Below, in pieces: positions 6,248-57,980 of a stretch of DNA of 64,000 nt. Within the stretch, counting starts at the first letter, position 1, and the number at the start of each line of letters is the position of its first letter. The stretch is from Ruminococcus flavefaciens AE3010 (GTDB lineage Bacteria; Bacillota; Clostridia; Oscillospirales; Ruminococcaceae), in contig NZ_JAGT01000001.1 in assembly GCF_000526795.1 (NCBI RefSeq), positions 3,392,501-3,456,500 on the forward strand. Reading direction: 5' to 3'. Both the position numbers and the translations under genes were made by a program. The notes beneath the pieces were generated by a model. That model was not told the DNA's origin. It did not search any database and saw nothing but the letters and a program-made list of their open reading frames with translations.

Positions 6248-7354
6248 CTATTTTTCTTGAGGTTTGGGAAGGGGAACAGGAAGTGGAGGGGTAGGGACTT
6301 TTTCTGCTTCGTTCAGTGCTTCGCGAGCAGGTCCTGTATTCTTATCCTCTTCGGGAGCAGGGGGCTCGGGAAGAGGAGCAAGAGCTTTGTATGGTGTTAT
6401 ATCTGAGAATTTGATCGCATCTAAAGCTGCCTTTTCCTGTTTGAGCTTTTCTTCCGGAGCGGCAGGTGCAGGCGGAGCTGCAACACCCTCATCGGGCTTA
6501 GGCGGTTCTGCCTTTTCGTCAGGCTTGGGAGCTGCTGCGCCCTCATCAGGCTTAGGCGGCTCGGGAGCATTTGGCTGTGCAGGAGGTGCAGGCGGAGCTG
6601 CGGGAGTTACCTGTGGAGCCGTGTTATTGTTTGCCGCAGGCGGAGCTGCAGGTGCGGGCTGATCGGCTTCCGCAGGCTTTGGCGGCTCGGGAGCTGCTGT
6701 GTCCTGAGGAGGCTTTGGCGGATCGGGCTTTTGGGTATCCTTTGCGGGATCAGCCTTTGGAGGCTCGGGAGCTTCCTTTTCATGAGGCTTGCTGCCGTCA
6801 AGCTCCTGTACCTTGACCTTTACATCGGGGATACCCGTGATGAGGTCTGATTTATAGGAGTAGTAATCAGCGGAATTATCTGCCTTGATATAGATATCAA
6901 CGGTGTCTCCGCTTTCTATATAGCCTTTGTCCTTTTCGATATCAATGATATCGTTTGCGGCGGTGAGCATATCCTTGCCTTTGCCGTCGTAGTTTGTAAG
7001 TATTTCGTCGCTCTCGGCATTATCGGTGCTGATGCTGAGCACCTTGCCCTTTTTGTTGAGCTCCATTCGTACATTAGCCTCTGACGAGATAAGTACGGTG
7101 GAGTGAGCCTTGTAATTGCCCGAGTAATAGAAAGCTCCTGCGGACACTGCTACAGTGAGACAGGCAGCGGCTGCAACAAATTTAGAAATATGCATGCTTA
7201 TCCTGCTGCGGGCTTCTGTCTCGGCGTTCATCAGAACGGGATCTGTGACAGTCTGTCCCACCTTGTAGCGGAGGTTTGCCGCCTGTACGAAGCGTGATTC
7301 CTCGTCCATAAGGACTGCATAGCCCTCGTGACATTCCATGACCATATATTTCAT
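6248..7354 (-). CDS. rsgI: RsgI-type anti-sigma factor with Pro-rich extracellular domain
   Basis: 368 residues. Residues 1-45 match the cytoplasmic RsgI N-terminal domain (MKYMVMECHEGYAVLMDEES) that holds SigI. One membrane span lies at about 57-77. Residues 80-190 resemble the periplasmic RsgI middle domain, with YDGKGKDMLTAAN and ESGDTVDIYIKADNS. Residues 195-368 are a Pro/Ala/Glu/Lys linker (PEPPKPDE, PAPPA repeats) without any carbohydrate-binding module. In cellulosome clostridia RsgI C-termini sense polysaccharides; here the extended tail may sense or cross the wall. The start overlaps the sigI stop by 4 bases (ATGA), so the two are translationally coupled. Confidence 0.9.
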   Translation of the reverse strand: MKYMVMECHEGYAVLMDEESRFVQAANLRYKVGQTVTDPVLMNAETEARSRISMHISKFVAAAACLTVAVSAGAFYYSGNYKAHSTVLISSEANVRMELNKKGKVLSISTDNAESDEILTNYDGKGKDMLTAANDIIDIEKDKGYIESGDTVDIYIKADNSADYYSYKSDLITGIPDVKVKVQELDGSKPHEKEAPEPPKADPAKDTQKPDPPKPPQDTAAPEPPKPAEADQPAPAAPPAANNNTAPQVTPAAPPAPPAQPNAPEPPKPDEGAAAPKPDEKAEPPKPDEGVAAPPAPAAPEEKLKQEKAALDAIKFSDITPYKALAPLPEPPAPEEDKNTGPAREALNEAEKVPTPPLPVPLPKPQEK

Positions 7355-8073
7355 TTGTTTTCACCACCTTTTAGTACCTGCATTATGTGACCGCGCATTA
7401 TCTCGTAGCCGTTTGTGCATATGAGAAGCACCGCCACAAGATAGCGTCTGTGTCTTTCAAGAGACTTTCTCTCCACATTTGCGCCGTCGGCAATCTTTGC
7501 CAGCGGAACGCGCTTTGTTCTGAGAAAGTCCTCCAGTATTTCGGGATTGTTTCTTGCATACTGAACAGCCTTCTGGCATATTTCAAGAGTACGGCGCTGT
7601 CTGGGAGAATTCTCCGCAACGTCGGTCATTGAAACACCGAAGTCCTGCATCTGAGCTGAAAGCTCGTTGATTTCCTGTTGTGTTGCTTCTCTTAGTTCGT
7701 TTTCTTGGTACTTATCGTGTTCGTCGCGTATTGTATCTTTCAGGTCCGGCTTGTCGTCGTCGGAAACGTCCAGTGATATCTGTCCCTTATTTCTTCTTTC
7801 TTTTCTATAGTTATCTATCAGGCGGTTCTTTATCTGCAAGGCTGCAAATTTGAGGAAGGAACCGCGGAGCTTGGAATAGTTGCGGATAGATTCGTAAAAA
7901 GCGAACATAGCTATACTCAGCTCGTCATCGCTCTTATCTGGCGGACGGTTGAGAAATTTGGCTGTTTCGGACTTGATAAATGGCATATAAGCTTCGATGA
8001 GCTCATCTGCCGCGTGGCTGTCTTTTTTAGCCTTATAGACCTGGGATATGATTTGATGCGCATCAGAATTCAT
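7351..8073 (-). CDS. sigI: RNA polymerase sigma-I factor
   Basis: 240 residues. Region 2 is at about 10-100 (AYMPFIKSETAKFLNRPPD, DELSIAMFAFYESIRNY, FLKFAALQIKNRLIDNYR), typical of SigI rather than ECF factors. The C-terminal SigI-specific helix-turn-helix includes RVPLAKIADGANVERKSLERHRRY. The start at 8073 has GGGGGTGG upstream; the longest frame begins at a TTG inside that site. Its own promoter has the ACCCC-19-CGTA layout, consistent with autoregulation. RsgI is encoded immediately downstream. Confidence 0.93.
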   Translation of the reverse strand: MNSDAHQIISQVYKAKKDSHAADELIEAYMPFIKSETAKFLNRPPDKSDDELSIAMFAFYESIRNYSKLRGSFLKFAALQIKNRLIDNYRKERRNKGQISLDVSDDDKPDLKDTIRDEHDKYQENELREATQQEINELSAQMQDFGVSMTDVAENSPRQRRTLEICQKAVQYARNNPEILEDFLRTKRVPLAKIADGANVERKSLERHRRYLVAVLLICTNGYEIMRGHIMQVLKGGENK

Positions 8074-49268: not shown

Positions 49269-49730
49269 TCAGTCACAGTGCTTGATAATGGTCTTTATGA
49301 GACCAAGAAATGCCGAGTGTATGAATGTGCGGACTGCAATGAGAGCCTGTCCGCCCATGAAAACGTATTTGCAGTATCTGTAGAAGTACTCGCCTGTATC
49401 GCCCTTGTATCTGTCAGCGAGGGCTTCGTAGTAGGGCTCCAGAGTAGTATTGCCGAAGCTGACGAACTCCACGAACAGGGCAAGGAGAATGGCTATAGTA
49501 AAGCCCAGATTCAGGTGAGCGCTGTCCAGTCCCGCAAGTCCAGTTATAAGGTGTACATACCGTGTGGAGAAGCCGATTATCACTATGCACAGCAGGGTGC
49601 ATATTATCATTCGTATGAAAGGGGAGTCCGCCTCGTTATTGGCAGGGCTTGTGAAGCCGATGTGCATAAACATCAGCGATATAAGGAACACAGCCGCGGA
49701 AAGGCTGAGATAGGCAATGACTCTTTTCAT
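49269..49730 (-). CDS. Small membrane protein downstream of T-box
   Basis: 153 residues, four predicted membrane segments (about 4-21, 37-56, 68-88, 118-140). The start at 49730 follows AAGGGGGAAGAA; the longest frame extends into the T-box terminator and is not credible. I recognise no family. It is the first gene after a T-box with an apparent Tyr specifier, so it may be co-regulated with tRNA-Tyr charging; whether it is a transporter is unknown. Confidence 0.8.
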
Positions 49731-49760
49731 ATTCTTCCCCCTTGCATGGAAAATATAAAA

Positions 49761-49990
49761 GCCCCCGAACAGCGTCTTACTGTTCGGGGGCGAAGTTACT
49801 CGCGGTACCACCCCGATTTATCCGTTTATGCGGAACTCGTCAAGCTGTAACGGGCATACCCGTCCGCATTTACTTGGTTTCAATGCGGCAACTCCCGAAT
49901 GTAGGTCACTGTGCGCCCTCATTCCCTCACACCATACGGGAACTCTCTGTATCAGGCACTGCACAGGTTTTATTCGTTCACGGTCTTTGC
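49761..49990 (-). promoter_or_regulatory. T-box riboswitch with apparent Tyr (UAC) specifier
   Basis: Minus strand. Stem I includes CCTGTGC/GCACAG and the AGAGAGTTCCC element; after the upper stem comes TGACC, then TAC (49901-49903) followed by A, the usual specifier layout. T-box motif GGGGTGGTACCGCG at 49801-49814. Terminator with 12-bp arms GCCCCCGAACAG / CTGTTCGGGGGC (49761-49791) and T-rich tail. It precedes the small membrane protein, uvrA and then tyrS. Confidence 0.88.
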
Positions 49991-50849: not shown

Positions 50850-51310
50850 AATAAAACCTCCAAAAATCATAGTGATTTTGTGAGGTTAGTATTTCCGTGT
50901 CTGGTTTGATTATGCATTGCGGACAGACGTTTTTCAGGACGGGATATTTTTGCATGTGGAATGCGGTTTTTCCTATTTATTGCTCTTTCAGCTCCAAATA
51001 TTGCTGTTTTTTATAAATAATTTGAGAAAAGACAAATTAAGTATTGACATTTAGATTTTTCTGTGATATAATTTGGAATACTTAGGGTTGTTATTGGCTA
51101 AATAAATACACTCCGTAAATTATTTTCTCATAGATCTGATATTCAATCTCAAAACGTAATGCAGTAACTGAGCCTGTAACGCCTTTTATTTTGGTTTTTT
51201 GATACCGATATGCAATAATTGCAGTATTGACAATGTTATTACGTTTATTAGCAGAAAACGCAACTGCTTTTAATTAGATTCTATGTTAAAATGATCAGGA
51301 GGACATAACA
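50850..51310. other. Intergenic region with long leader
   Basis: Contains the consensus promoter at 51044-51072, which leaves an AT-rich leader of about 230 bases before the surface-protein gene. A second TTGACA lies at 51225 without a good -10 at normal spacing. No riboswitch is recognised and no gene is seen. Confidence 0.55.
51044..51072 (+). promoter_or_regulatory. Promoter of surface-protein/peptide transcript
   Basis: TTGACA (51044-51049), 17-base spacer, TATAAT (51067-51072), both consensus. Confidence 0.8.
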
Positions 51311-52651
51311 ATGAAAAAACAGCATGGTTTGAAGAAAACAGCGGCACTCATAATGTCAATGGCTCTTGCAGCAGGTGCACTGCCTGTAAACGCAGGAGGC
51401 TTTTTCAAGTCAGGCAGTGCTATCGTTGCTAATGCAGCAGAAGAAGAAAAGACACCTGCAGAAGCAAAGACACCTGCACTGGGTACATTCTACAGAGAAG
51501 GCGATACTATCGCTGTAACAGGCGATACATGGTTCAAGATCGATGATGATCCTCATTCGGGTTATCCTGTTGTAAAGATCGACAGTGATCTTAAAATAAC
51601 AGAATATGAGAGCTCTGACAAATATAACCAGTATGTATGGAAAACAGGCGAGACTATGTTTACGGAAGTACATAACGGCTTTTATATTACCCGTGAAGAT
51701 CCTGAAGCTGATGCTGAGGGCTTCTATATAACAGGCGGCAAGGGCACACAGAATGATCCTTTCATTATCGGACTTTCTGCTCCCAAGTTCTGCGGAAAGA
51801 ATCTCACTCTCAGCGACGGTATCGGTCTTAACTTCATCGTTGATACGATCAATGAGGGCAATGCTGCTGATATCAAGGTAAAGATATCGGGCAACTGCGA
51901 AGATGAAGGCACACAGAGCCTCTATGTCAGAAATATCAACGGACAGGACGTATACTGCGCAACAGCAAATGTTGCTGCTAACAATATGGACAGCGTTATC
52001 ACAGCCGAGCTCTATTACGGCGGCAGTGAAACACCTGTTGATACTCTTTCATTCTCAGCAAATGATTACCTTGATACTGTTGACACATCATCAGATGCAA
52101 AGTTCAAGGCTCTTGTAGATGCAGCAAAGCAGTACGGACAGGCTGCTTCCGCATATTTTGGAAAAGGTGATATCCCTGCTGTAAAGGATCACACTGATGA
52201 TATCGTCAATGCAACAGTTTCTTTCGGCAAATTCAGCTTCAGCAAGTATGCACCGATGTTCGATTCAAGTGTAGCAAGTATCTCACTGGTTCTGAACTCA
52301 AAGCTTGCTGTTCGTCTGTATACAGCTAAGTATGAGGATACACACCACAATATAGCTGCATATGATATGTGGACATATGACGAAAACAATAAGCTTGTGA
52401 TCTCACCGTTTTCTGTAATTGAGGTATTCCAGGGGTCAAACGGAAAGTACTGCTTTGAGATCCCGGGTATTAAGCCTACACAGCTCGGTACTACATTCAA
52501 TGTAAACTATCAGGGTACTGATTACTTATTTACTCCTATGGCATGGGCTTACCGTGTACTGAGCAAGGAGGGCGCTCCCAAAAAGGACGTAGCAATGGCT
52601 AATGCGCTTTATGAATACTTTATTGCTGCAACAGATTACGCAGGCAATTGA
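51311..52651 (+). CDS. Secreted surface protein, function unknown
   Basis: 446 residues. Signal peptide with a long N-region; cleavage near residues 28-42 (PVNA or VANA). Residues about 160-280 form a domain seen in other gut Firmicute surface proteins: LSDGIGLNFIVDT, QDVYCATANVAANNMDSVIT, FKALVDAAKQYGQAASAYFG. A related second half (300-446) ends with DVAMANALYEYFIAATDYAG. It has no dockerin, sortase signal or SLH motif. Its stop is 14 bases before a 35-residue peptide gene with its own strong ribosome site, so both are probably on one transcript. AGGAGG precedes the ATG. Confidence 0.82.
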   Translation: MKKQHGLKKTAALIMSMALAAGALPVNAGGFFKSGSAIVANAAEEEKTPAEAKTPALGTFYREGDTIAVTGDTWFKIDDDPHSGYPVVKIDSDLKITEYESSDKYNQYVWKTGETMFTEVHNGFYITREDPEADAEGFYITGGKGTQNDPFIIGLSAPKFCGKNLTLSDGIGLNFIVDTINEGNAADIKVKISGNCEDEGTQSLYVRNINGQDVYCATANVAANNMDSVITAELYYGGSETPVDTLSFSANDYLDTVDTSSDAKFKALVDAAKQYGQAASAYFGKGDIPAVKDHTDDIVNATVSFGKFSFSKYAPMFDSSVASISLVLNSKLAVRLYTAKYEDTHHNIAAYDMWTYDENNKLVISPFSVIEVFQGSNGKYCFEIPGIKPTQLGTTFNVNYQGTDYLFTPMAWAYRVLSKEGAPKKDVAMANALYEYFIAATDYAGN

Positions 52652-52665
52652 AAGGAGATAGAAAA

Positions 52666-52773
52666 ATGAAGGAAAAGTATACAGCTCCCGAAATGGAGAT
52701 AATCAAATTTGACAACGAGGACGTTATCACAACAAGTCCTGCATCAGGTACTCCTGAAACAAACGATTATTAA
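52666..52773 (+). CDS. Short peptide with YxxP leader-like motif, candidate RiPP precursor
   Basis: 35 residues, too short for usual gene finding. AAAGGAGA lies 7 bases before the ATG. The N-terminal part MKEKYTAPEMEIIKFDNE has Tyr5-x-x-Pro8, the motif by which PqqD-like RRE proteins bind lasso precursor leaders. The middle reads EDVITTS, with Thr22/Thr23 like the conserved penultimate leader Thr. The C-terminal part after Ser24 (PASGTPETNDY) is small, Ser/Thr-rich and ends Asp-Tyr. No Cys or Lys is present after residue 14. It faces an operon with PqqD, HprK-like kinase, nucleotidyltransferase, peptidase and exporter, which are its likely partners. Confidence 0.75.
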   Translation: MKEKYTAPEMEIIKFDNEDVITTSPASGTPETNDY

Positions 52774-52833
52774 TGCTATGCAGGTCTGTCCGAAGCTGTC
52801 GGATAAAGACCTGTAACAGACTGTGAAACAGAA

Positions 52834-52871
52834 CAGCAGATGTATCTTTAGGGAACATCTGCTGTTTTTTT
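52834..52871 (+). terminator. Terminator of surface-protein/peptide transcript
   Basis: CAGCAGATGT / ACATCTGCTG arms followed by T7, 60 bases after the peptide stop. Confidence 0.85.
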
Positions 52872-52889
52872 ATATTATGATACCACAGC

Positions 52890-52914
52890 AAAAAAGGACG
52901 GCGTGCAGCCGTCC
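52890..52914 (-). terminator. Terminator of the PqqD-ABC operon
   Basis: GGACGGC / GCCGTCC hairpin with T6 on the minus strand, just after the ABC gene stop at 52929. Confidence 0.85.
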
Positions 52915-52928
52915 CGAGTCTTTATATA

Positions 52929-54635
52929 TCAATTGTTACTCTGCAAGTCTGTGAAGTCAATGACCCTGTCGCATATCTCCAGTGCCGCAGGACGATGCGT
53001 GACAATGACTACCGTTTTATCCGTCATACTCCGTAGATTTTGCAGCAGCAGTTTTTCCGTATGCTCGTCAAGTGCAGACGTGGCTTCATCAAGGAGCAGT
53101 ATCGGGCTATCACTGAATATCGCCCTTGCTATTGCGATACGCTGCATCTGTCCCTCGGAGAGACCTGTTCCGCGCTCACCGAGGAGAGTATCAATGCCGC
53201 TTTCAAGCTCGCTTACGAACTCATAAGCACAGGCTATTTTCAGGGCATTATTAATGCGCTCTTCATCATGCAGTCCGCTTTTATCCGCAAAGCATACCAC
53301 ATCGCGTATCGTTCCGCTCATGAGCTGATTGCCCTGCGGAACGTAGGCGAACAGCCTGTGCCATTCTGCGGATAACGGCTTTTCACCGTCTGTATCGGTC
53401 AGATAGCGCTCTCCGCTGTCCAGCTTATAAATGCTCATCAACAGTTTCAAAACCGTCGATTTTCCGCAGCCGCTGTGACCTGTAAACGCCACATATTCGC
53501 CTTTTTTTATTTCAATACTGATGTTTTTCAGCACTATGGGCTGATCATCTTTTGACAAGTCCTTGATGCTGTCAACTGCAGGATAATAGGTGAAATCGGC
53601 ATTTTTCAAGCCGAAAGCTCCCAGCTTATCGGAATAATATGCCTTGACTGTATCAATGTCAAGTGCAGTTTTTTCGCAGTCATCAGAGAAGCTTTCAATC
53701 TCCATAAGGCGCTCAGCACTTGCGGTCATAGCATAAAATCTCGGCAGATAGCCCGTGATATTGGCAAACGGAGCTTGTATCTGCGATATGAGCTGTGTGA
53801 TAGCGGTCAGCGTACCATAGGAGATAGTACCGAGCAGTATCCCATATCCGCAGTAGCACACGCCGAACAGGTACATTCCGTTCATAGCAATACCGAAGCC
53901 GATGTTACAGAAGTTGGAGAAGCGGTTTCTCTTCATTCGGGAACTCTTATGCGCATGCATTTTGGTAACGGCTTCATCTTCCGTTTGCTGTTCTGCTGCA
54001 AAGGAGCGAATTATCATCATGCTGCCGATGTGCTCCTGCAGGAATATACGGAGCTTACCGTCGCGCTCCTGCACGTTCTTATGGAGCTTTTTCAGCACCT
54101 TGCGGAAGGCATAGGTCAGCAGTATCAGCAGAACGCCGCAGGGGAGCAGTACGCAGGCGAACCGCCAGTCAAGGACGATCATCATAATGACCGCACTTAT
54201 CAGCTTTACCACCATTCCCACCAGTCCGGGAAGTATGTCCACATAGCTTTCGGCAACTACGACTGTATCATTTGTCAGCCTGTTGAGCCATTCGCCCGAA
54301 TGGACGGCGTTCACGCTTGCAAAATCTTTACGCAGGATATTCCGCATGAGCCGAGCCTTGAAGATGTTCTCGAAAGTCGCTCTCGATAACTCGTTCAGCC
54401 AGCGAATTATAGCTCTCATTCCTATCTGCGAAAGTACAAGCAAAACCGTTAGCAGCACATAAAACCAGAAGCCGCTTCTGTCGTGTGCAGTCGCGTTATC
54501 CACGATATTCCGCAACAGCAAGGCATACAGCACACCGCTTGCTCCGTGCAGAGCCTGTACTATCATCAGAGCAAGTATGTACAGCTTTTTCTTTTCAGGT
54601 ACGGCGTATAGCCATTTTATTGCATTATTCTTCAT
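52929..54635 (-). CDS. ABC transporter, fused permease and ATPase (peptide exporter type)
   Basis: 568 residues. Six membrane segments in the first 320 residues (ABC_membrane type I exporter), then an ATPase with Walker A FTGHSGCGKSTVLKLLMS, signature LSEGQMQRIAIARAI, Walker B PILLLDEATSALDE, and H-loop VVIVTHRP. No C39 peptidase domain. It probably exports the mature peptide. The start at 54635 overlaps the peptidase-gene stop by four bases (ATGA); the longest frame adds 27 residues inside that gene. Last gene of the operon. Confidence 0.92.
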   Translation of the reverse strand: MKNNAIKWLYAVPEKKKLYILALMIVQALHGASGVLYALLLRNIVDNATAHDRSGFWFYVLLTVLLVLSQIGMRAIIRWLNELSRATFENIFKARLMRNILRKDFASVNAVHSGEWLNRLTNDTVVVAESYVDILPGLVGMVVKLISAVIMMIVLDWRFACVLLPCGVLLILLTYAFRKVLKKLHKNVQERDGKLRIFLQEHIGSMMIIRSFAAEQQTEDEAVTKMHAHKSSRMKRNRFSNFCNIGFGIAMNGMYLFGVCYCGYGILLGTISYGTLTAITQLISQIQAPFANITGYLPRFYAMTASAERLMEIESFSDDCEKTALDIDTVKAYYSDKLGAFGLKNADFTYYPAVDSIKDLSKDDQPIVLKNISIEIKKGEYVAFTGHSGCGKSTVLKLLMSIYKLDSGERYLTDTDGEKPLSAEWHRLFAYVPQGNQLMSGTIRDVVCFADKSGLHDEERINNALKIACAYEFVSELESGIDTLLGERGTGLSEGQMQRIAIARAIFSDSPILLLDEATSALDEHTEKLLLQNLRSMTDKTVVIVTHRPAALEICDRVIDFTDLQSNN

Positions 54636-55066
54636 CGTTTCAGTTTTCTTTTCAGCCGTTTTGGTATCGTTTTTATTCGCAGTATGAAGGCTCTTATGGG
54701 GAAGAGGTCGCACCACAGGTGAACGTAAATACGGTACTTACAGTCTGTTATGAGAACTTCCTTGCCGTCACGGACAACTGCCGTCAGTACGCCGATAATA
54801 TGCTTGTCCGTTATTCCGTACTCTTTGCAGTAACGGTTATCGCCGCAGATAACATAATCATTATCGCGGACTTTTAGTATACGGTGAAGCACATACTGAC
54901 CGCTATCCCTTTTATAAAGCGGAACGTCGTACTTTTTCAGCCGTCCCTGCGGCTTTTCTATGATCATCAAGTCCTTGTCCTGCCGTATCAGCGGACGCAT
55001 ACTGTCACCCACATTGGTATAGATCAGCCGTCCGTCACGCTCGATAATATCTTCAAATTTAGTCAT
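54632..55066 (-). CDS. S24/S26-family peptidase, ER-type (S26B-like) Ser-His dyad
   Basis: 144 residues. Box B VGDSMRPLI with Ser22, box D-like YVLHRILKV with His61 in the place where bacterial signal peptidase I has Lys (as in SipW/Sec11), and a GDN box (ICGDNRYCKE). It lacks an N-terminal membrane span; the C-terminus is basic (PKRLKRKLKR). A leader peptidase for the short peptide is the natural inference. It overlaps both neighbours by four bases. Confidence 0.85.
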   Translation of the reverse strand: MTKFEDIIERDGRLIYTNVGDSMRPLIRQDKDLMIIEKPQGRLKKYDVPLYKRDSGQYVLHRILKVRDNDYVICGDNRYCKEYGITDKHIIGVLTAVVRDGKEVLITDCKYRIYVHLWCDLFPIRAFILRIKTIPKRLKRKLKR

Positions 55067-55794
55067 TGCATACCCTCAAATGCGACCTTCGCCGCTTCAA
55101 TATCCATATTACAGCCGAGCCTATATAGTTTCACGCCCTCAGCCATTCTGTCCGCAAGGTCGAGCGTTTTCATCAGTTTTTCGCCGTTTGCAGGACGATA
55201 TGACTGCTGCAATAGCATAGAATAGGCTTGCTCTCTTGTGATAGGTTCGATATGATTTTCGGCAGCTCTTGTCAGGATACATATTGCTTTCAGCGGAACG
55301 GCTATATTTGTGCCTAAGCCGTGCTTGCCGTTATATGGCGTACCGTAGGCAATAACTCCATTCTCGGTCACTTTCAGCATTGGCTTATCGTCATTGACCA
55401 TAACAGCTCTTTCGCCGAAATACTCGCGCCAAAGCCTTGTATGCGTGGACTTTCCCGTGCCGCTTTTTGCTGTGAACAGGTAGCCCTCACCGTCAACTGC
55501 GATAACAGAACCGTGAAATACGAACGTATCATAGTCGGGCATTATCTCTGCTATCTTGCGGTATACCGCCGTTTCTTCAAGGAGCTCATCAGAGAAGTTC
55601 GGCAGCGGAAGTCCCTCATAAGCATACTCAGAGTCGGACTTCTGCTTCTCCAAAGCAATATCTTCGGGAGTTATAGTTACCGAAAAATCGGGAGCTTCAT
55701 CAGTTATGTATTCCTTGCAGTATTCGTGGACAAGCTCATGTATGGAGCTTACCTCAATGACCTTATCGGCTATCTTATACTTTCTCTTTGGCAT
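55063..55794 (-). CDS. HprK-like kinase (PEP-carboxykinase fold)
   Basis: 243 residues. Walker A AKSGTGKSTHTRLW (about 109-122) and VMVNDDKPML (Walker B-like, about 131-140), GTPYNGKHGLGTN downstream. It resembles the HPr-kinase homologues of lasso clusters such as paeninodin's, which phosphorylate a Ser of the peptide; it is too short and divergent to be the housekeeping HPr kinase. It overlaps the nucleotidyltransferase gene by 20 bases and the peptidase gene by four. Confidence 0.85.
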   Translation of the reverse strand: MPKRKYKIADKVIEVSSIHELVHEYCKEYITDEAPDFSVTITPEDIALEKQKSDSEYAYEGLPLPNFSDELLEETAVYRKIAEIMPDYDTFVFHGSVIAVDGEGYLFTAKSGTGKSTHTRLWREYFGERAVMVNDDKPMLKVTENGVIAYGTPYNGKHGLGTNIAVPLKAICILTRAAENHIEPITREQAYSMLLQQSYRPANGEKLMKTLDLADRMAEGVKLYRLGCNMDIEAAKVAFEGMQ

Positions 55795-56884
55795 TTTTCT
55801 TCATCACTTTCAAAATTGTAGAGAGATACTTACGGCGTATCAGAAGTACACGTCCCCAGCGGTATACCACGCCTAACGGATAGAGGAAAGGGCATTTGCC
55901 GACAAACTTGACGGAAGTCTTCATGTAGTTCATTGACGGGAACATATTGCGCAGTATATTCTTCGTTTTCGATCTGTGAGGCGCAAAATGAGCCATATGG
56001 TTTTCAACAGTGCCATATGTTCCGTACTTAATGTATTCCTCCAGCAGAGCCTGCTCTGCGTCGTTAAGGACGGGCAGCTCTGAAGATAAAAACACCTTAA
56101 TGGCAAGCGCACGGCGGGAACTCTCGAAATCATCTATCTTCATCTGTCTGCACTGCTCTGTGATGTACTTCCAGTCAAGGGAATCACCCTTGCTTTTCAC
56201 ATAAACATAGCAGTCGAGCAGGTTCCTTATGCCTGTACCGCCGCTTGAAAAATGCTTGTATTCATGGGCGGTCACATACACGTAGAAGTCCTCGTCAGAC
56301 ATATGATAGCCGAACTTCTTACCCTCATCCTGTATCATGAGCCTTTGAGGTTCACGGTAATAGTCGTGCAGATGCTCAATATTAGCTCCGAACAGAACAG
56401 TGTGAAGTTCAAAGTTCAGCACAGGCGGCTTCATATATGTATCATGGTGATGCTTGCCGACACTCTCCGCAGTATAGCCCATACTGAGCATGAGCTCCTT
56501 GACCTTCTGCTGCTTTGTGCTGTCATAGAGGACGTCATTATCCGCCATTTCGCGCATACCGTTTTCGGGATAGAGGTCTTTCAGTATGGAGCCTTTCAGC
56601 GGCATATACCATATGCCGTTCTTCTCAAGTTCCTCTGATATCGCTGTTCGCTCCACGTCCAGCATGATATTCTTGCGGACAGCCTTATTGTATGCCTGTT
56701 CAAATTCATGATCGGTCACGCCTGCCGACTTTAAGGCTGTATGCACTGCAGCTCTGAGAGTATGCCACTTGCAGAACTCATAGAGCTTCTCCATGTCCAT
56801 AGCCAGGACTCTCTCCTTATCGGGAGAAATACCGTTCACGGCACAGGCGAGGAGGTATATGACGTCTTTTGCTGTATTATTCAT
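55775..56884 (-). CDS. Nucleotidyltransferase family protein (NTP_transf_5)
   Basis: 369 residues. Catalytic pattern PLKGSILKDLYP (Gly98-Ser99) then DND at 115-117 (REMADNDVLYD), and a third acidic position around NFELHT. This is the nucleotidyltransferase group found in some lasso and other peptide clusters, where its substrate is not established. Soluble. It overlaps the PqqD gene by eight bases. Confidence 0.87.
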   Translation of the reverse strand: MNNTAKDVIYLLACAVNGISPDKERVLAMDMEKLYEFCKWHTLRAAVHTALKSAGVTDHEFEQAYNKAVRKNIMLDVERTAISEELEKNGIWYMPLKGSILKDLYPENGMREMADNDVLYDSTKQQKVKELMLSMGYTAESVGKHHHDTYMKPPVLNFELHTVLFGANIEHLHDYYREPQRLMIQDEGKKFGYHMSDEDFYVYVTAHEYKHFSSGGTGIRNLLDCYVYVKSKGDSLDWKYITEQCRQMKIDDFESSRRALAIKVFLSSELPVLNDAEQALLEEYIKYGTYGTVENHMAHFAPHRSKTKNILRNMFPSMNYMKTSVKFVGKCPFLYPLGVVYRWGRVLLIRRKYLSTILKVMKKNAKEKV

Positions 56885-57140
56885 TTATCACAGCTCCAAT
56901 ATCGCGGAGCTTGCCAATGATATCGGCAACGTCCTTTTCGGCTGTGGTACGGTCTACATCGTACTTTGCAAGGAGCTTGTCAACGATAGCGCTTTCGGTA
57001 GTATCTGTTTTCAGAGCTTCAATAATAAAAGCGGCTGTGGGATTGCTCCTAATGAGACCGTTGAAGTCTGTTCCTGTTGTTGATACGGTGATATGCTCAC
57101 CCTTAGTTTCGTGTGTCAAGAATTTCGGATTGAGTTTCAT
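56877..57140 (-). CDS. PqqD-family RiPP recognition protein (RRE)
   Basis: 87 residues, the length of a free-standing RRE. Three-strand, three-helix PqqD pattern: GEHITVSTTGTDFNGLIRSN for the strands, TAAFIIEALKT and IVDKLLAKYDVDRTTAEKDV for the helices. Such proteins hold leader peptides for modifying enzymes; the leader with YxxP at 52666 is the obvious candidate. GGAGG before the ATG. First gene of the five-gene operon. Confidence 0.9.
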   Translation of the reverse strand: MKLNPKFLTHETKGEHITVSTTGTDFNGLIRSNPTAAFIIEALKTDTTESAIVDKLLAKYDVDRTTAEKDVADIIGKLRDIGAVINE

Positions 57141-57167: not shown

Positions 57168-57196
57168 ATTATACCACATAATTACAAAAACAGCAA
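57168..57196 (-). promoter_or_regulatory. Promoter of PqqD-ABC operon
   Basis: TTGCTG (57191-57196), 17-base spacer, TATAAT (57168-57173), minus strand; leader about 25 bases. Confidence 0.7.
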
Positions 57197-57395: not shown

Positions 57396-57980
57396 ATGAA
57401 AAGATCAACATTGAAATTAACACTGGCTTTTATGCTTGCTGTATGCACACTGACCGGCTGCGGAAAAGACAGCTCAGAGTCCAAAAATGACAACAGGAAC
57501 AACAGCTCTTCTGCTGCTGTAACAACTGCTTCGGAAGTATCGGGGAGCGCTTTGGCAGCAGCGACGACTGCTGATGATAAAACAGAAGCTGAAACAACTC
57601 AGACCGAGACTGCTCTGCCTGAAAAGACAGAAGCTCCTCAGTCGGATAAAACAGATGTCACATCAGCCGATCAGAGTGAGGGCAGCTCAGATGCTGTTAC
57701 AGAGGCGCAGGCACTGGAGGCTGTAAAAAACTATTGCTTCACTAAAAATCCCAATCTGAAAAACATGGTGGATTCGGATGAATACACTATCTATTGGAAT
57801 GCTTCCGTGAATGATGCCAATGAAATAGTTGTTCTGTTCAGATCTTATACTGCCGCACAAATACGCTATTATATCGATCCGATCTCAGGAGAGACCTATG
57901 TTACCGAGCTTGTCCCCGGAATAATAGATGAGGAACAGCGCACGGAAGAAAGCTTTAATATCAGAGACTACTTAGGGTAA
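57396..57980 (+). CDS. Lipoprotein of unknown function
   Basis: 194 residues. Lipobox LTGC at about 19-22; Ser/Thr/Glu/Asp linker to about 100; C-terminal domain of about 90 residues (EAVKNYCFTKNPNLKNMVDS, NEIVVLFRSYTAAQIRYYID, SGETYVTELVPG) that resembles a PepSY-like or similar small fold. AAAGGAAC precedes the ATG. Divergent from the PqqD operon with 255 bases between; a link to that system is not shown. Confidence 0.8.
   Translation: MKRSTLKLTLAFMLAVCTLTGCGKDSSESKNDNRNNSSSAAVTTASEVSGSALAAATTADDKTEAETTQTETALPEKTEAPQSDKTDVTSADQSEGSSDAVTEAQALEAVKNYCFTKNPNLKNMVDSDEYTIYWNASVNDANEIVVLFRSYTAAQIRYYIDPISGETYVTELVPGIIDEEQRTEESFNIRDYLG

Follow-up and report, generated by a model that had tools for sequence, protein, structure and literature searches.

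What do five tightly packed genes of Ruminococcus flavefaciens AE3010 make, and what is their product for? The genes lie in a stretch of 64,000 nucleotides of contig NZ_JAGT01000001.1 (assembly GCF_000526795.1, positions 3,392,501 to 3,456,500), which is the window referred to below. They encode a PqqD-like recognition element (RRE) for ribosomally synthesized and post-translationally modified peptides (RiPPs), a nucleotidyltransferase, an HprK-like kinase, a signal-peptidase-like protease and an ATP-binding cassette (ABC) exporter, and they face a gene for a surface protein followed by a frame for a small peptide. A first-pass annotation, made from the sequence alone, had predicted that the peptide is cleaved and phosphorylated or nucleotidylated without being cyclised into a lasso, and by analogy with a homologous system this chemistry is probably correct. 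We consider it probable that the operon is a Clostridia-type variant of the maturation system for linear polyphosphorylated peptides (LPP), dedicated to peptides that partner surface proteins. The enzyme set itself is not new, being a variant of a very recently described family; what is new here is the link of its peptides to surface proteins. The features concerned are the following (positions within the window).

51044 to 51072, plus strand: promoter-like site of the surface-protein/peptide transcript (TTGACA-17-TATAAT, 12 of 12 matches, sigma-70-type, with TG ahead of the second hexamer)
51311 to 52651, plus strand: secreted surface-type protein P0006, 446 amino acids (aa) by translation, with a tandem C-terminal type-A domain
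52666 to 52773, plus strand: LPP-type precursor peptide of 35 aa, with a leader (residues 1 to 24, ending in EDVITTS) and an acidic tail of 11 residues
52832 to 52866, plus strand: terminator hairpin of the peptide transcript (12-bp inverted repeat, 11-nt loop, by eye), followed by a T run
52895 to 52915, minus strand: terminator hairpin of the maturation operon (8-pair stem with 6 GC, from the scan), followed by a T run
52929 to 54635, minus strand: ABC exporter, LppD-like, MsbA-type (PF00664, ABC_membrane, 118.2 bits; PF00005, ABC_tran, 93.5 bits)
54632 to 55066, minus strand: S26B-type (S24/S26) Ser-His peptidase, LppS-like (S22, H61, D76; sub-threshold profiles)
55063 to 55794, minus strand: HprK-like kinase, LppK-like (H94, K115 in the P-loop, D135, D136; sub-threshold profiles)
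55775 to 56884, minus strand: NTP_transf_5 nucleotidyltransferase, LppN-like (PF14907, 150.9 bits, above cut-off)
56877 to 57140, minus strand: PqqD-type RRE, LppB-like (PF05402, 56.8 bits, above cut-off)
57168 to 57196, minus strand: probable operon promoter (TTGCTG-17-TATAAT, seen by eye and under the scan threshold)

As the first-pass annotation had described, the five genes run in one direction, on the minus strand, with overlaps of 8, 20, 4 and 4 nt, and face a plus-strand transcript with the surface protein and the 35-residue peptide. The single terminator of the operon was recovered as the minus-strand hairpin, and its single promoter was recognised by eye. The exporter was taken to start at the ATG at 54635 and not at the GTG upstream of it at 54716, and the plus-strand hairpin exceeds the loop limit of the automated terminator scan. 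The set is not a chance assembly, since the identical five families recur together in relatives: ten loci show all of them (the window, L031, L040, L041, L044, L052, L057, L061, L067 and L197). The order is kinase-RRE-peptidase-exporter-transferase in eight of these ten, with one inserted gene in L057, and RRE-transferase-kinase-peptidase-exporter in the window and L031. In one genome (G438, locus L197) the surface protein, the peptide, the kinase, the RRE, the peptidase, the exporter and the transferase stand in a single row in the published order. A peptide, a large protein and maturation genes also share one locus in L036 and in L040.

That published order is the one of lppAKBSDN, the LPP system of Paenibacillus alginolyticus (Popov et al., Nat Commun, May 2026; PMC13381572). 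Its core comprises an RRE, an HprK-like kinase, a nucleoside triphosphate (NTP) transferase, a SipW-like peptidase and an MsbA-like exporter, so the earlier statement that no characterised system has this composition no longer holds. According to that source the RRE binds the YxxP motif, the kinase adds up to four phosphates to core Ser3, and the SipW-like peptidase, helped by the RRE, takes off the leader; deletion of lppN had no detectable effect. The cleaved, phosphorylated, non-lasso product class foreseen for the window agrees with what this same gene set yields in P. alginolyticus. Our loci resemble LPP, as described there, in the five core families, in the K-B-S-D-N order of most complete loci, in having no adjoining cyclase, and in a short precursor with a conserved YxxP N-terminal region, a highly variable C terminus and a conserved Ser.

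The kinase and the peptidase stay below the Pfam cut-offs and were therefore identified through conserved residues. All Pfam and NCBIfam matches of the kinase are sub-threshold (Hpr_kinase_C, 15.4 bits; ScmC, 28.1 bits), and in an alignment of 12 sequences H94, K115 and D136 are invariant and D135 nearly so; the H-K-D-D motif of HprK-like kinases is described in PMC9266682, and its mapping onto these residues is our own. The peptidase gave sub-threshold matches to Peptidase_S24 (15.8 bits) and archaeal signal peptidase I (22.5 bits), its family profile weakly matches signal peptidases and SEC11, and S22, H61 and D76 are invariant among 13 aligned sequences. Like the S26B signal peptidases SipW and SEC11 it carries GxSMxP, HR and GDN boxes. 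Unlike them, it shows no N-terminal membrane segment by eye, and its gene sits in an RRE operon. The catalytic Ser and His are 39 residues apart, as in LppS (S29/H68). N33 is invariant and D70 nearly invariant among 15 aligned RREs, and the best NCBIfam profile of the exporter by E-value is MsbA, under its cut-off. The predicted model of the nucleotidyltransferase (predicted local distance difference test score, pLDDT, 87.6) most resembles known nucleotidyltransferases, among them 5uvd and LnuA (root mean square deviation 2.4 over 88 columns), and shows a weak resemblance to FKRP, a sugar-phosphate transferase. The predicted fold fits nucleotidylation and sugar-phosphate transfer alike.

The window peptide reads MKEKYTAPEMEIIKFDNEDVITTSPASGTPETNDY. 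A profile search of the protein database rendered 356 relatives among 359 candidates, of which 120 were listed; among these 120 the leader of 24 residues is near-invariant and the tail hypervariable in sequence and length, spanning 7 to 52 residues (median 13) in the 113 that fit a stricter pattern. The tails are acidic, with a median net charge of -3; two of 115 unique tails have zero charge and none lies above. All 120 listed homologues have Ser at the final leader position, where the pattern permitted S, A or G; part of the conservation of D and S follows from the method, as the pattern that delimited the leader has some positions preset. If a guess at the cut site is made, VIT/TS would be the best likeness to FET/xxS, with a hydrophobic residue at -3 and Thr at -1, and the invariant Ser would therefore lie at +2 and not at +3. 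Three more peptide matches in the genome of the window lie at a great distance from the operon: a type-A surface protein precedes two of them, at 1.57 Mb, and a giant protein resembling leucine-rich-repeat proteins precedes the third, at 1.05 Mb. The same genome holds a lipoprotein frame (L076, 6511 to 6891, minus strand) that ends in a full YxxP...EDVITTS module with a DLP-type tail; alternatively, a separate peptide could be made from a nested GTG start that is preceded by GAGGG.

The first-pass annotation had proposed that co-occurrence of the families with short YxxP peptides be examined, and the distribution is in line with its proposal. In a sample of 60 genomes, including the genome of the window (G000), the peptide is present in 26. 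Kinase matches were found in 24 genomes at E of at most 1e-10, and 22 were kept at 1e-50 or better, dropping G009 (a stretch of 39 aa) and G048; peptidase matches were found in 24 genomes at E of at most 1e-6, and 23 were kept at 1e-20 or better, dropping G032. With these strong matches, peptide and kinase are found together in 22 genomes, the peptide alone in 4, the kinase alone in none and neither in 34; the corresponding figures for the peptidase are 22, 4, 1 and 33. Restoring the dropped weak matches gives 22, 4, 2 and 32 for the kinase and 23, 3, 1 and 33 for the peptidase. Thus a strong kinase match occurs in 0 of the 34 genomes devoid of the peptide, the exceptions being two weak kinase matches and one peptidase match. 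PF14907 alone tracks the peptide more loosely (19, 7, 6 and 28). Because kinship inflates genome counts, a count by family is fairer: the kinase is found in all 8 families with the peptide versus 0 of 17 others (1 of 17 counting G048). In a draw of 398 genomes from the phylum, the peptidase profile matched 9, that of the window and G438 among them. Kinase matches come one per genome in 21 of 22 genomes and two in G010, and precursor matches number from 1 to 13 per genome (13 in G020).

Much of this machinery is also found in paeninodin-type lasso systems (PadeK, ThcoK), and it could be asked whether the window carries a degenerate or split system of that kind with its cyclase elsewhere. According to PMC9266682 and PMC7533575, an RRE, an HprK-like kinase and an NTP-transferase are common to such clusters, which share with our loci a discrete RRE, an HprK-like H-K-D-D kinase, an exporter and sometimes the NTP-transferase. 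Pseudomycoidin PsmK and PsmN likewise pair an HprK-like kinase with an annotated nucleotidyltransferase acting on phosphoserine (PMC9266682); pseudomycoidin is a lasso peptide bearing a hexose on its C-terminal phosphoserine, whereas the system here is known from genes alone. The precursor tails, moreover, mostly begin with Gly (71 of 113). Yet many other starting residues occur, and the S26B peptidase occupies the place of the B2 protein. The absence of a B2 transglutaminase-like peptidase noted earlier was upheld by family PF13471, which gave 0 matches in the genome of the window and stands above cut-off in just 3 of the 60 genomes, so a lasso B2 protein is not the usual partner of these genes. 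No asparagine-synthetase-like macrolactam cyclase was found among the Pfam-scanned window proteins between 50310 and 60552, no genome-wide PF00733 search having been made. The acceptor would be a Ser at the boundary of leader and core, in contrast to the C-terminal Ser of paeninodin-type systems. LppB picks Tyr leaders through N33 and D70 according to the main text of PMC13381572, and the RRE of the window has both of these Tyr-selecting residues, whereas PbaB1 has Gly and Gln at those positions. We regard a split lasso system as highly improbable.

The evidence for a partnership between peptide and surface protein comes from 76 peptide reading frames, each scoring 14 bits or more, in stretches around relatives; they were not de-duplicated and include some near-identical ones. 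Of these frames, 57 follow a same-strand gene that is 100 aa or longer and lies no more than 100 nt upstream, the median gap being 20 nt and the median length 812 aa. For 47 of the 76 peptides the gene found in this 100-nt range upstream reaches 400 aa or more, compared with 48 of 506 ordinary genes of the same stretches. Under wider limits, 64 peptides have an upstream partner (150 aa or longer, up to 260 nt away), 53 of these partners reaching 400 aa or more; four have a downstream partner (300 aa or longer, up to 150 nt away), and eight have none. By a lax rule, 44 of the 64 upstream partners have a signal-like start, four lack one, and 16 are cut at an edge with the start unseen. Pfam found LRR_5 in two of eight chosen partners, Flg_new or its second model in three, FN3 with GLUG in one, a transglutaminase core in one and no domain in one; P0006 matched no Pfam or NCBIfam family at an E-value of 0.1. 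In L052 a second peptide lies behind a lipoprotein, by eye. The adjacency reported by the first-pass annotation is thus confirmed, and its description as a neighbour understates the relation: protein and peptide form a recurring pair served by an apparently single operon. As far as our literature searches show, the main text of the LPP paper included, such a pairing has not been described so far; the words surface, adhesin, secreted, lipoprotein and Clostridia are absent from the main text of PMC13381572.

The tight coupling, with 42 of the 76 peptides starting 10 to 30 nt behind the upstream gene, would also suit a small regulator (of translation or secretion, for instance) of the surface-protein operon, the phosphorylation system having another substrate. 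This is very unlikely, since the leader has the RRE-binding YxxP motif and the peptide tracks kinase and peptidase across families.

Further support for peptides that partner surface proteins comes from the type-A domain, for which a profile (A7) was built from the last 200 residues of 14 partners. The domain was found in 16 of the 60 genomes, all of them peptide-positive (Fisher p 3.6e-8), and for 31 of 42 type-A matches a peptide follows no more than 110 nt after the end of the match. Another seven lie in a peptide-adjoining gene, five of them with the domain deeper inside or a longer gap and two with the peptide upstream (assigned by hand). The type-A region of P0006 is predicted to form two beta-sandwich modules with helices behind each (a model of 300 residues from 28 sequences, mean pLDDT 82.8, predicted template-modelling score, pTM, 0.82), and no clear relative was found for it among solved structures.

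It could also be the case that the product is a free-standing RiPP, antimicrobial or signal, with the surface protein as receptor, immunity factor or co-regulated passenger. Variability of the tail, set against a conserved leader, is a usual trait of RiPP cores, and the exporter is of the general MsbA type. In the main text of PMC13381572 the biological role of LPP is given as unknown, and its authors infer that the family is gained and lost rapidly, as is typical of genes involved in biological conflict. On the other hand, up to 13 precursors per genome (in G020), most with their own surface protein, would be odd for a secreted antimicrobial, the partner domain is found in peptide genomes only, and seven of the eight scanned partners have LRR_5, Flg_new, FN3 or transglutaminase-like domains, none of which is immunity-like. 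We hold a free-standing RiPP to be unlikely.

Several observations weigh against a dedicated LPP variant. Three of the 26 peptide genomes (G005, G023 and G032) lack strong matches to both kinase and peptidase, and two genomes devoid of the peptide (G009 and G048) have weak kinase matches, G048 with a peptidase match as well; the exporter is absent from the loci of some relatives (e.g. L036, L037 and L058). Compared with LPP as described in the main text of PMC13381572, the consensus YxxPxVLxHQxIxFETxxS is followed at Y, P, the hydrophobic position two past P and the terminal Ser, whereas HQ and FET are absent here, EDVITTS taking their place, and Tyr and Ser are 19 residues apart instead of 18; the system is therefore called a variant and not a plain member. 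The third catalytic residue has no clear counterpart in LppS: D76 of the peptidase lies 15 residues past the His, and D93 of LppS 25 past. The RRE profile scores the actinobacterial lasso RREs TbiB1 (33.9 bits) and TfuB1 (30.8 bits), as well as PbaB1 (25.5 bits), above LppB (19.1 bits). Because many lasso and pyrroloquinoline quinone (PQQ) RREs share N33 and D70, as the same source states, these residues argue against paeninodin and not for LPP alone. As to the pairing, the eight partnerless peptides, at least three upstream partners (in L123, L138 and L144), which by eye are not surface proteins, and four of the 42 type-A matches stand apart. Those four have no adjacent peptide: L077 and L171 are followed by a tail lipoprotein, L170 lies at a contig edge and L172 shows neither. 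The type-A profile itself favours close kin, because it was built from peptide neighbours.

With regard to G032, this nearly complete genome holds only a peptide fragment (L144, 6050 to 6115) with a stop inside the match, no kinase match and a weak peptidase match; this state is as expected for decay once the system has been lost.

Taken as an LPP variant serving surface proteins, the system would work as follows. The RRE would bind the YxxP leader of each small precursor, the HprK-like kinase would phosphorylate or polyphosphorylate the invariant Ser of EDVITTS, and the S26B peptidase, guided by the RRE, would cut the leader off near VIT/TS; these three steps have been shown in the literature for the homologous LPP system and are carried over by homology. 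Before cleavage, the NTP-transferase may extend the phosphate with a nucleotide, a sugar or a sugar-phosphate, and after it the ABC exporter would carry the resulting linear peptide, short and acidic, out to the surface of the cell. There, as the genomic evidence suggests, the peptide may act with the large secreted protein encoded upstream, through its C-terminal domain, most likely by holding, assembling or regulating it. A single operon would serve the 1 to 13 precursors of a genome.

Whether the peptide goes as far as to anchor its partner is more doubtful; we put forward only tentatively that the exported, phosphate-decorated peptide is a sortase-independent anchor or clamp of the giant adhesin-like protein encoded beside it. 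Once lengthened by the NTP-transferase, the phosphoserine would be joined to wall glycan or lipid, and the tail would dock into the C-terminal domain of the partner. A lipoprotein stalk that carries the same ELPxxP-type tail would give this domain another anchor, bound to the membrane. None of the 58 partners that are 300 aa or longer shows a membrane helix or LPxTG end, as judged by a simple hydrophobicity and motif rule applied to the last 60 residues. Other wall-binding domains were looked for in eight partners and P0006, and P0006 has no recognised anchor. Sortase is above cut-off in 57 of the 60 genomes. The missing anchors suggest, from sequence, anchoring via the peptide; secreted proteins may equally need no anchor.

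The precursors here differ from those of LPP, as described in the main text of PMC13381572, in being scattered through the genome, mostly beside surface proteins, and in being accompanied by stalk lipoproteins that carry a tail motif. A rule of thumb picked out 17 small secreted proteins with low-complexity stalks near these genes, 13 of them within 400 nt of a same-strand peptide, two beside the machinery (L034 and L061), one behind a type-A protein (L171) and one unrelated (L115); the one in L130, counted among the 13, has a membrane helix at its end and is likewise probably unrelated. Of 1405 called genes from 122 stretches, 9 carry a C-terminal [ED]LP-x-[VILM] at most 4 residues from the end, and none carries any of five permuted versions; the result is descriptive only, because the motif was picked after seeing examples in those loci. 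The nine carriers are eight distinct genes, one being shared by L147 and L180, and all are stalk-type proteins or, by eye, a dockerin protein adjoining the system; overlapping stretches repeat some genes, and gene calling overlooked at least two more carriers (L116 and L131). In the peptides, [ED]LP occurs in 33 of 115 unique tails versus 0 to 4 for permutations, and the window peptide itself lacks it. A small secreted protein in L034 (1863 to 2213, plus strand), dockerin-like by eye, ends in a YELPFIP tail; the tail is therefore not limited to lipoproteins.

The link of peptide, surface-protein domain and tail lipoprotein in Clostridia gives the LPP family a concrete cell-surface role that can be put to the test. 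Moreover, one operon may serve many precursors in trans, and searches confined to its neighbourhood would therefore miss them. If the anchoring proposal were true, gut and rumen bacteria would display adhesins by a modified peptide without sortase, and LPP-type peptides would have a first function.

Some further observations were made in and around these loci. Related clusters with a radical S-adenosylmethionine (SAM)-type protein of 375 to 383 aa were found in L198, L199, L200, L202 and L203 (tested with Pfam in L198 only); their YxxP peptides contain Cys, and these clusters may represent a sactipeptide-like offshoot of the machinery described here. L200 and L202 additionally hold peptides matching, by eye, the published FETxxS consensus. 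In L057 a radical SAM protein (PF04055; 4439 to 5800, plus strand) precedes the operon and a methyltransferase (7222 to 7890, plus strand) lies within it, which suggests further modifications there. Within the window, a lipoprotein-like frame with a Ser/Thr-rich linker (57396 to 57980, plus strand), divergent from the adjoining operon, has no Pfam family and no ELP-type end such as is seen in stalk lipoproteins of relatives. A T-box leader (RF00230, 103.8 bits) was found at 49783 to 49990 on the minus strand, at the start of the frame at 49269 to 49811 on the same strand.

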